Source of the DNA: Alphaproteobacteria bacterium
Lineage (GTDB): Bacteria > Pseudomonadota > Alphaproteobacteria > Micropepsales > Micropepsaceae
Reading direction: 5' to 3'
NCBI GenBank assembly: GCA_025350465.1
Contig: JANXXU010000002.1
Span: forward strand, 1-64,000
DNA length: 64,000 nucleotides
Below are positions 35,854 through 38,839 of this stretch, in pieces (position 1 is the stretch's first letter; each line of letters opens with the position of its first letter). Made by a program: the position numbers and the translations under genes. The notes under the pieces were generated by a model. That model saw only the letters and a list, made by a program, of their open reading frames with translations, had not been told where the DNA came from and did not search any database.

Positions 35854-36783
35854 TCAGGCCGCCATCAGCGCTTTGACATGCGCGGCCGTTGACGAAGCCA
35901 GCGCCACGAGGTCGTAGCCGCCTTCGAGCGTAGAGACGACGCGCGAGCCGCAGCGCGCTTTGGCGACGGCGCACACCTTCTCGGTCACCCAGGTATAATC
36001 GGCCTCGGTCAAATTCAAATTCGCCAGCGGATCACGGCGGTGGGCGTCGAAGCCCGCGGAGATGAAAATGAAGTCCGGTTTGAACGCATCCAGCGCCGGC
36101 AGTATTTTGCCTTCCCACGCCACGCGGAATTCGGTGCCGCCGCTGCCGGGATCGAGCGGCACGTTGAGGATGTTGTGCGCCCTGCCCTGCTCTTGCGGGC
36201 GGCCGGTGCCGGGGTAAAGCGGCATCTGGTGGCTTGAGGCGAAGAAGAGATGCTCGTCCTCGGCAAACATGACTTGCGTGCCGTTGCCGTGGTGGACGTC
36301 GAAATCGACGACGGCGACGCGATCGAGGCGATGATGCTGGCGCGCATGAAGAGCGCCGATGGCGATGTTGTTGAAGAGGCAAAAGCCCATCGCCTTGGTG
36401 GGCTCGGCATGATGACCCGGCGGGCGCACGGCGCAGAACGCGTTCTTGGCGCCACCGGCCATCACGAGATCGACCGCGCCGACCAACGCGCCCGCCGCGC
36501 GCAACGCCGCCTCGCCGGAGCCCGGCGACATGTGCGTGTCTGCATCGAGTGCCGCATAGCCGCGCTCCGGTACCGCGCGCAAGACGGCACTGATGAAATA
36601 GCCGGGGTGAACGCGCGCGATCTCTTCTTGCGTTGCGGAGCGCGCATCCTCACGCACGAGAAACTGAAATTCTTCGGCCTCGAGCGCCGCGAGAACCGCA
36701 CGCAAACGGTCCGCCGACTCCGGGTGACCGGGCGGCGTTTCGTGGTACAAGCAGGCCGCATGCGTGAATAAAGCGGTCGTCAT
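35854..36783 (-). CDS. Histone-deacetylase-family (AcuC/polyamine deacetylase-like) amidohydrolase
   Basis: 309 residues. The zinc-dependent arginase/deacetylase fold is recognised from RPPGHHAEP (catalytic His pair near 124-125), GFCLFNNIAIGA, the zinc ligands in VVDFDVHHGNGTQ (D160/D162/H164 region), ISAGFDAHRRDPL and the catalytic-tyrosine motif LEGGYDL near 290. Bacterial members remove acetyl groups from acetylpolyamines, acetyl-CoA synthetase or other acetyl-lysines; the substrate here is unknown. ATG 36783 is only 27 bp from the divergent transporter start, and no Shine-Dalgarno is visible, so a leaderless message is possible. Confidence 0.9.
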   Translation of the reverse strand: MTTALFTHAACLYHETPPGHPESADRLRAVLAALEAEEFQFLVREDARSATQEEIARVHPGYFISAVLRAVPERGYAALDADTHMSPGSGEAALRAAGALVGAVDLVMAGGAKNAFCAVRPPGHHAEPTKAMGFCLFNNIAIGALHARQHHRLDRVAVVDFDVHHGNGTQVMFAEDEHLFFASSHQMPLYPGTGRPQEQGRAHNILNVPLDPGSGGTEFRVAWEGKILPALDAFKPDFIFISAGFDAHRRDPLANLNLTEADYTWVTEKVCAVAKARCGSRVVSTLEGGYDLVALASSTAAHVKALMAA

Positions 36784-36810: not shown

Positions 36811-37827
36811 GTGCCGCAAGCCGCAAATCTTGAAAGTTTGGGACCCGTGGGCGAGGACGCAGAGCAAGGCCTGGTCTATGCCTATCTTCTCGACGCCAAG
36901 GGCGGCGCGCGCGAAGTCGGCTGGCCCGAGGTGCGCGCCTGGACGCCCGAGATGGGCGCGCTCTGGGTTCACCTGAACCGCACCAAGGAAGACGCCGAGC
37001 ACTATCTGCGCCGCGAGGCGGGGCTCGACGACATCGCCGCCGAGGCGCTCCTCGCTGCCGACACCCGTCCGCGCATGGCGGCGCAAGGCGCAGGGCTGAT
37101 CGTCAATCTGCGCGGCATCAATTTCAATCCGGGCGCCGACCCGGAAGACATGATCTCGCTACGCGCTTGGATCCAGAAGAAACGGATCATCACGTCGCGC
37201 GCACGCCGCTTAATGGCGGCCGACGACATTCGCGCGCGCTTGGCGCGCAACGCCGGACCCAAAGACGAAATCGACTGCCTGTTCGAATTGGCAAAAGCGA
37301 TGCTGATGCGCGTCGGCCACGTGGTCGAAGAGCTTTCCGACAAGGTCGATGCGCTGGAAGATCAAGTCGTCTCCGGCGACACGCGCCGGATCCGTGACGA
37401 GCTTGCCCAGGCGCGCAAGCGCGCGATCGCCATCCGCCGCCATCTGGCGCCCCAACGCGAGGCCTTGACGCGGTTGCAGGCCGAAAAGCACGAAATGCTC
37501 GACTCGATCGACGCGGCGCACTTTCGCGAGCTTGCCGACGATACGACCCGCTATGTCGAAGACCTCGACAGCGTGCGCGAGCGTGCGACCGTCATTCAGG
37601 ACGAAGTGCTGAACCGCCTGACGGAGCGGCAGAACCGCAACTCCTACGTGCTGACCATCGTGGCTGCGATCATGCTGCCGTTGAGCTTCATCACCTCGTT
37701 GTTCAGCACCAGCTTGCCCGGCATGCCGCTCAAGGGCGACCCCAACGCGTTCTGGCTATTGCTGATCGTGCTTGGCGTTATAGTCGTGCTCGAGATCGCC
37801 CTGTTCCGGCTGACGCGTTGGTTGTGA
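36811..37827 (+). CDS. CorA/ZntB-family metal transporter with altered GxN signature
   Basis: 338 residues. The layout is that of ZntB: a cytoplasmic funnel domain (about 1-270) with a long acidic and coiled helix near 150-270, then two C-terminal transmembrane helices (about 276-298 and 312-333). The family's Gly-x-Asn filter should follow ITSLF at the end of TM1; here residues 299-301 are S-T-S (FSTSLPGMPLKGDPNAFW). The rest of the loop, including the D-P-x-A-F-W entry to TM2, is normal. Zn(II) or other divalent transport is expected but selectivity could differ. GTG 36811 is the proposed start; GTG 36847 is an alternative. Confidence 0.85.
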   Translation: MPQAANLESLGPVGEDAEQGLVYAYLLDAKGGAREVGWPEVRAWTPEMGALWVHLNRTKEDAEHYLRREAGLDDIAAEALLAADTRPRMAAQGAGLIVNLRGINFNPGADPEDMISLRAWIQKKRIITSRARRLMAADDIRARLARNAGPKDEIDCLFELAKAMLMRVGHVVEELSDKVDALEDQVVSGDTRRIRDELAQARKRAIAIRRHLAPQREALTRLQAEKHEMLDSIDAAHFRELADDTTRYVEDLDSVRERATVIQDEVLNRLTERQNRNSYVLTIVAAIMLPLSFITSLFSTSLPGMPLKGDPNAFWLLLIVLGVIVVLEIALFRLTRWL

Positions 37828-37834
37828 GACGGCA

Positions 37835-38839
37835 ATGGATTTGACCCAGTTCCCGCGCGTGATGCTGGGCCATTGGCCGACGCCGCTCGAACCAATGGAC
37901 CGATTGAGGTCGCATCTGGGCGCCGCGTGCCCGAAACTTTACGTGAAGCGCGACGACTGCACGGGGCTTGCCACCGGCGGGAACAAGACCCGCAAGCTCG
38001 AATTTCTGATGGGCGAGGCACAAGCCGAGGGCGCGCAAATCGTCGTCACCTTCGGCGCCGTCCAGTCGAACCACGCGCGACAGACGGCGGCGGCGGCGGC
38101 GAAACTCGGGCTTGAATGCGACCTCATCCTGCTCGACATGGTCCACGGGCGCGGGCCCGCTTACGCCACATCCGGCAATGTGCTGCTCGATAAATTGCTC
38201 GGCGCGCGAATCCATCTGGCGTCGCCCGCGGCGGCGCAAGTCACGCTGCAGAGCATCCTGCTCAAGCACAAAGCGGCCGGACGCAAAGCCTATGTCGTGC
38301 CGCTCGGCGGATCGAATTCGACGGGAGCGCTCGGCTATGTCTCGGCCTACCGCGAGCTTGGCGCGCAATGCGCCGATCACAACATCACGGTCAGCGCGAT
38401 CGTGCATGCGGTGTCGAGCGGCGGGACCCAGGCCGGACTGGTCGCCGGTGCCGCGTTCTACGATCACCGGACGCGGATCCTGGGCGTCAACGTTTCGCGC
38501 CCCGTTGGTGCCGGAATTGCAGACAATGTTCGCGAAATCGCGCGCGAGACGTTGGAGCGGCTCGAAGGTGTGCCGCCCGGCCTCGACCGGCGCGTCGAGG
38601 TCGTCGACGGTTTCATCGGCGAAGGCTACGGCATTCCGAGCGACGCCATGCGCGAAGCAATTTTGCTGGCCGCGCGGTACGAGGGCCTGATCCTAGATCC
38701 GGTCTATTCCGGAAAGGCTTTCGCGGCGCTCTTGTCGATGGTGCGCGCCGAGAAGTTCGGCGCGTCCGATACGGTGGTGTTCCTGCACACGGGCGGCAAT
38801 GCCGTGCTACCGGCGTATATAGGCGAGTTAAGCCAATAA
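37835..38839 (+). CDS. D-cysteine desulfhydrase / ACC-deaminase-family PLP enzyme
   Basis: 334 residues, fold type II PLP family. Schiff-base lysine K51 is in GGNKTRKLEFL, the VQSNHARQTAAAAA helix forms the carboxylate site, GGSNSTGALGYVSA is the phosphate cradle region and SSGGTQAGLVAG follows. The family includes D-cysteine desulfhydrase, ACC deaminase and L-cysteate sulfo-lyase; all produce a 2-oxo acid and ammonia. Product specificity is not decided here. It starts 7 bp after the transporter gene, suggesting co-transcription. Confidence 0.87.
   Translation: MDLTQFPRVMLGHWPTPLEPMDRLRSHLGAACPKLYVKRDDCTGLATGGNKTRKLEFLMGEAQAEGAQIVVTFGAVQSNHARQTAAAAAKLGLECDLILLDMVHGRGPAYATSGNVLLDKLLGARIHLASPAAAQVTLQSILLKHKAAGRKAYVVPLGGSNSTGALGYVSAYRELGAQCADHNITVSAIVHAVSSGGTQAGLVAGAAFYDHRTRILGVNVSRPVGAGIADNVREIARETLERLEGVPPGLDRRVEVVDGFIGEGYGIPSDAMREAILLAARYEGLILDPVYSGKAFAALLSMVRAEKFGASDTVVFLHTGGNAVLPAYIGELSQ

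Follow-up and report, generated by a model that had tools for sequence, protein, structure and literature searches.

The asparagine of the Gly-x-Asn (GxN) filter is treated as a signature of CorA, ZntB, and Mrs2 proteins. In the window (the whole stretch of 64,000 nucleotides that was analyzed here), one gene for a protein of this type has Ser-Thr-Ser (STS) at the place of this motif (Table 1), raising the question of whether the filter Asn has truly been lost and, if so, what has become of the protein, for which the first-pass annotation had offered a lineage-specific change in selectivity, a sensor, or a decayed channel.

Table 1. The gene for the STS protein, its C-terminal elements, and its flanking genes (positions in the window)
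Feature	Positions	Strand	Residues or size	Basis or comment
Histone-deacetylase-like gene, divergent	35854..36783	-		Pfam Hist_deacetyl, 302.7 bits; marks the orthologous locus
ZntB/CmaX-like CorA-superfamily gene	36811..37827	+	338 aa	Putative GTG start
TM1, pore helix by alignment	37627..37704	+	273-298	Alignment to T. maritima CorA
Ser299-Thr300-Ser301 replacing Gly-x-Asn	37705..37713	+	299-301	phmmer alignment
Remaining periplasmic loop, LPGMPLKGDPNAFW	37714..37755	+	302-315	
TM2	37756..37824	+	316-338	Alignment to T. maritima CorA and CmaX
Pyridoxal-phosphate (PALP) enzyme gene	37835..38839	+		Pfam PALP, 166.2 bits; 7 bases past the stop

Judged by its sequence, the STS protein is a member of the CorA superfamily that is closest to CmaX and ZntB. 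It matches the Pfam CorA model (PF01544) with 226.3 bits over residues 50 to 333 (curated cut-off, 27), and its best solved relatives are CmaX of Pseudomonas aeruginosa (7nh9; 224 bits over residues 17 to 338), followed by ZntB of Escherichia coli (5n9y; 150.7 bits over residues 21 to 337). By alignment to T. maritima CorA, ZntB, and CmaX, a long stalk helix is followed by two TM helices at the C terminus. The score against the NCBIfam ZntB equivalog NF007092 was 216.5 bits, below the cut-off of 292, and at the end of TM1, where 2-TM-GxN proteins (CorA/ZntB/Mrs2/Alr) are defined by Gly-x-Asn, residues 299 to 301 are STS. By sequence-based descent, the protein is thus a CorA-superfamily member, yet it falls outside the GxN definition and below the NCBIfam ZntB cut-off. 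It is doubtful that translation starts at the GTG codon because the alignments with the eight nearest relatives begin only at residues 11 to 19 and the open frame extends a further 13 codons upstream. An AlphaFold2 monomer, built on an alignment of 5 sequences, had a mean pLDDT of 55.9, with residues 299 to 306 below 50, too low to inform on the shape of the mouth.

The claim of the first-pass annotation that STS stands in the place of GxN was borne out. The open reading frame reads LPLSFITSLF, STS (codons AGC ACC AGC), and then LPGMPLKGDPNAFW; in phmmer alignments, S299-T300-S301 pairs without a gap with GIN of CmaX (7nh9), GVN of ZntB (5n9y), and GMN of T. maritima CorA. Around TM1, residue n of the STS protein is residue n+13 of T. 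maritima CorA, and Gly312 and Asn314, named as the filter residues of the latter in the accessible part of PMC3629940, align to residues 299 and 301. The register is held by P290, P306, and F314, each of which is present in all eight members of the clade described below. A gapped alignment that would place another Asn in the filter was considered and rejected, as the alignment is gapless and Asn312 adjoins the F314 anchor; column 312 is Asn in five clade members and Asp in three.

A search of the genus with the STS protein gave a CorA match at an E value of 0.001 or better in 10 of 11 genomes and a ZntB-like orthologue in 7 of them, the STS genome included. The nearest relative (G004) is 83% identical and has SVS, and GVS is found in four full-length orthologues (G010, G007, G005, and G003) and in that of G002, of which a contig end leaves a 90-aa fragment. 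The sister genus, represented by one genome (G018), has an orthologue that is 60% identical, also with GVS. Together, the STS protein, the six others from its genus, and the one from the sister genus make up a clade of eight proteins, all of which have Ser at position 301 (six GVS, one SVS, and one STS), while Thr300 is seen in the STS assembly only; one or two evolutionary events underlie all such clade counts. GVN is found in a sister lineage that is 53 to 54% identical (G019 and G020), and the other CorA proteins read in the family have GMN or, in one case, GIN. At the family level, 10 of 96 genomes, including the STS genome, gave a match at an E value of 1e-20 or better; the order-level search covered the same 96 genomes. 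At the protein level, loci L003, L004, L005, and L006 duplicate L008, L010, L012, and L011, respectively. These data support the lineage-specific change proposed in the first-pass annotation in that Ser301 marks one clade; what the homologues share is the exchange of Asn for Ser, the exact STS being confined to this assembly. Close homologues with GxN, which the first-pass annotation had regarded as evidence against its claim, were not among the six nearest full-length homologues, all of which have SVS or GVS, and GxN appears only at 53 to 54% identity.

GVN, GVS, SVS, and STS are each present in living relatives, and because the sister lineage carries GVN, the filter likely changed in the order GVN, GVS, SVS, STS, as judged by parsimony. 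Ser301 is encoded by AGC or AGT within the genus and by TCC in the sister genus. From these codons, either Asn would have been lost once, followed by a switch between codon families that kept Ser, or Ser would have been reached twice.

To place these changes in a wider context, we drew on searches of the class, in which 92 of 385 genomes had a match at an E value of 1e-30 and 89 of the 93 rows besides that of the STS protein were read (leaving out G123, which is partial, G290, G262, and G184), and of the phylum, in which 108 of 398 genomes had a match at 1e-40 and 73 of 118 rows were read, that of the STS protein included. The phylum rows read were the best-scoring ones, three from earlier sets, and 40 hand-picked across families, with 45 rows unread. 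There were 195 nonidentical frames, of which 165 score at least 100 bits against the STS protein: the 8 with Ser for Asn, 156 with Gly and Asn, and one piece of L088, whose frame is broken by a stop, that ends short of the motif. As loci L089 and L153 hold one and the same G122 protein, the 156 amount to 155 ZntB-like proteins outside the clade, and Gly as well as Asn is conserved in 155 of 155, which places STS beyond chance. Among the 30 lower-scoring frames, all 29 other CorA proteins keep Gly and Asn; the 30th is the second piece of L088, with GAN. The middle residue is more variable (I in 70, V in 37, M in 25, A in 8, T in 8, and S in 7 of the 155); it is often small or polar (e.g., in L082 and L094), a broader range than the GMN, GVN, and GIN forms met in the accessible literature. 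In a tree of 158 rows, 150 of them with GxN, a single branch separates the eight losses of Asn from the other rows (SH-aLRT 97, from a quick IQ-TREE search with the motif columns left in), and there was no further loss of GxN among these rows. Across the 155 outside proteins, ten positions show conservation of at least 97%. The clade differs from them at 299 (two of eight members) and 301 (eight of eight) and has a single departure at 304 (Ser in G018), and the other seven positions are kept in all rows that cover them.

The pore also has features that set the clade apart, although these are observations on one clade that inheritance alone may explain. Ser or Thr is present at 278, 292, and 296 together in eight of eight clade members and in 1 of 155 proteins outside it. 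Since this one protein, L027, belongs to the GVN sister lineage, the polar pore lining may predate the loss of Asn. The equivalent of residue 278 in T. maritima CorA is Met291, the counterpart of Met336 of human MRS2, which has been proposed as a gate (PMC10632456, accessible part). In the loop, Asp or Glu at 310 together with Asn or Asp at 312 is found in eight of eight clade members and 8 of 155 others. All eight are invariant at columns 281, 285, 289, and 292, which alignment to T. maritima CorA marks as pore facing.

We favor, with a probability of roughly one half, the reading that the STS protein is a working cation path with an intact CorA fold, a Ser-for-Asn filter, and changed selectivity. 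Here, the filter Asn would have become Ser in the common ancestor of the two genera, or twice on neighboring branches, and the filter Gly would have become Ser later, in the lineage of the STS genome and G004. The protein would still form a pentamer with a central cation path. At the mouth of CorA and Mrs2, a hydrated divalent cation is bound by five Asn side chains that lie over five Gly carbonyls; with the shorter hydroxyls of five Ser residues, the cation would be bound more loosely and the opening would be wider, while Ser for Gly at 299 would add a side chain and leave the backbone carbonyl in place. The Ser mouth would also prolong the Ser/Thr-lined stretch of TM1 (278, 292, and 296). 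On this comparison of filters, the mouth of the STS protein is probably wider and less selective, and hydrated divalent cations (Zn, Co, Ni, and Mg) are predicted to pass through it faster or with less discrimination. A bolder and less likely reading is that the natural serine-ring filter and the Ser/Thr-lined pore give the channel a permeability that is new, such as weak selectivity among hydrated cations.

An altered filter may have been tolerated because normal CorA, MgtE, and ZnuA proteins are present. In the STS genome, there is a single further CorA, which has GMN and shares 22% identity with the STS protein across 212 aligned residues, together with a single MgtE and two matches to ZnuA. 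The six other orthologue-bearing genomes of the genus (G002, G003, G004, G005, G007, and G010) likewise all carry MgtE and a further CorA of the GMN type, and ZnuA is present in five of the six, none being found in G005. With these transporters present, the supply of Mg and Zn need not depend on the STS protein. In G018, the second CorA (contig C45:10419-11462, minus strand) is matched by Pfam CorA in two pieces with approximately 190 bases between them, which share one open frame of 514 aa, as if with an insert.

The presence of CorA, MgtE, and ZnuA, which could cover transport, is also in line with the main rival, a nonconducting sensor or regulator in which the cytoplasmic domain and TM1 would sense metal or the state of the membrane and the mouth would be closed to ions, so that the loop drifts. 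The loss of both Gly and Asn in the STS protein and G004 fits with a sensor, as does the distribution of divergence along the protein. Relative to the soluble part, the median distance in TM1 was 0.30 for clade pairs (n = 21) versus 0.53 for GxN pairs of similar divergence (n = 135), while the medians for residues 299 to 315 were 1.49 versus 0.88 and those for TM2 were 1.83 versus 1.31; these pairs are not independent, the ranges overlap, and the fragment rows L013, L088, and L085 were left out. These ratios suggest that the pore helix is held at least as tightly as in GxN relatives and that the mouth and outer helix drift more. Thus, of the first-pass view that the rest of the loop and both helices look normal, the part on TM1, which is well kept, stands, while the loop and TM2 differ more between clade members. 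A sensor is less easily reconciled with the invariance of pore-facing columns 281, 285, 289, and 292 in eight of eight, or with position 301 being Ser throughout, in either of two codon families, instead of varying, which suggests that this position still matters.

The gene neighborhood also speaks against a sensor, since no signaling gene was recognized beside the STS gene, its neighbors being the histone-deacetylase-like gene and the pyridoxal-phosphate enzyme gene. In a comparison of eight relatives (leaving out the G002 fragment), the histone-deacetylase-like open reading frame adjoins the gene on the opposite strand in seven (G004, G007, G005, G003, G018, G019, and G020), and none is listed within the flanks of approximately 1.5 kb of the G010 gene (L009). 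Among the loci compared, only the STS locus and that of L003 (SVS) have a PALP gene directly downstream; for L004 (GVS), the nearest PALP match is approximately 2 kb downstream. Based on these data, we consider a sensor or regulator rather unlikely, albeit the strongest of the rivals.

Slow decay, in which the filter would go first and then the loop, with the gene disappearing from the genus, we regard as unlikely still more clearly. It draws on the absence of a ZntB-like orthologue from 4 of the 11 genus genomes, i.e., G001 (64% complete), G006 (92%), G008 (86%), and G009 (82%); as G006 is 92% complete, true gene loss is likely in at least one of them. The loop and TM2 are more divergent, as described above, and in comparisons of the STS protein with each of its five full-length relatives in the genus, dN is higher for residues 273 to 338 than for the soluble part (e.g., 0.264 versus 0.150 with G010). 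Because GVS pairs have about equal values (soluble part versus residues 273 to 338, 0.105 and 0.118, 0.063 and 0.057, and 0.134 and 0.187), and because the order is reversed in the GVN pair G019-G020 (0.258 for residues 273 to 338 versus 0.377 for the soluble part), the whole TM part appears to have evolved relatively faster in the STS lineage. The gene is nevertheless under purifying selection. As estimated by the method of Nei and Gojobori with Jukes-Cantor correction, and only roughly so because dS was 0.7 to 1.7, dN/dS of the STS protein for the soluble part and residues 273 to 338, respectively, was 0.137 and 0.167 against G004, 0.14 to 0.23 and 0.27 to 0.35 against G010, G007, G005, and G003, 0.29 and 0.23 against G018, and 0.44 and 0.36 against the GVN protein of G019. 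The divergence of the loop and TM2, together with the values of 0.27 to 0.35, fits partly relaxed constraint and, like the four absences, counts against a working cation path. However, the values of approximately 0.14 to 0.17 against the nearest relative and the strong conservation of TM1 make simple decay unlikely, and the open frame is full length in seven of eight clade members (the eighth being interrupted by a contig end), with Ser301 kept in all eight. The decayed channel of the first-pass annotation is therefore disfavored, with the drift of the loop and TM2 and the four absences remaining on its side.

Finally, an assembly or sequencing error, for which the first-pass annotation had pointed to 37690-37710, close to the STS codons, or a misalignment is highly improbable: Thr300 is seen in the STS assembly alone, but Ser301 recurs in eight genomes and Ser299 in two, which refutes an error at 299 and 301, and the alignment is gapless with P290, P306, and F314 in register.

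Among known systems, CmaX, the best solved relative, has GIN and E. coli ZntB has kept GVN, in contrast to STS here. ZntB has been described as a Zn transporter that a pH gradient stimulates and whose filter is wider than that of CorA (PMC5670123, accessible text). T. maritima CorA and eukaryotic Mrs2 belong to the same fold family but have GMN; T. maritima CorA also has an acidic MPEL motif in the loop (PMC3629940, in the part available), which the STS protein lacks. In the available portions of three reports (PMC3629940, PMC11919701, and PMC10404273), the hydrated cation in CorA and Mrs2 sits between Asn side chains and Gly carbonyls. Speaking against a working cation path, changes to GMN usually harm function: a yeast Mrs2 mutant with G-M-N changed to A-A-A had reduced growth (PMC11919701, accessible part), and complementation by plant AMN or GIN forms was weak or absent (PMC9948656, accessible part). 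These plant MGT/MRS2 variants are natural departures from GMN that keep Asn (PMC9948656 and PMC13048270, as far as their accessible text goes), whereas Asn is lost here. Bacterial CorA or ZntB proteins without the filter Asn were not found in the titles, opening abstract lines, and text passages of the literature matches listed, a coverage that mostly leaves out subscription papers. 

The STS protein and its relatives thus represent one bacterial clade that replaces the filter Asn, with living intermediates and mostly at one orthologous locus, and the clade is a natural test of what the filter Asn is for. GVN, GVS, SVS, and STS provide a ready series for assaying the roles of Gly versus Asn in conduction and selectivity. 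If the reading as a serine-ring channel with a new permeability is true, it would show that the supposedly universal Asn is dispensable for conduction.
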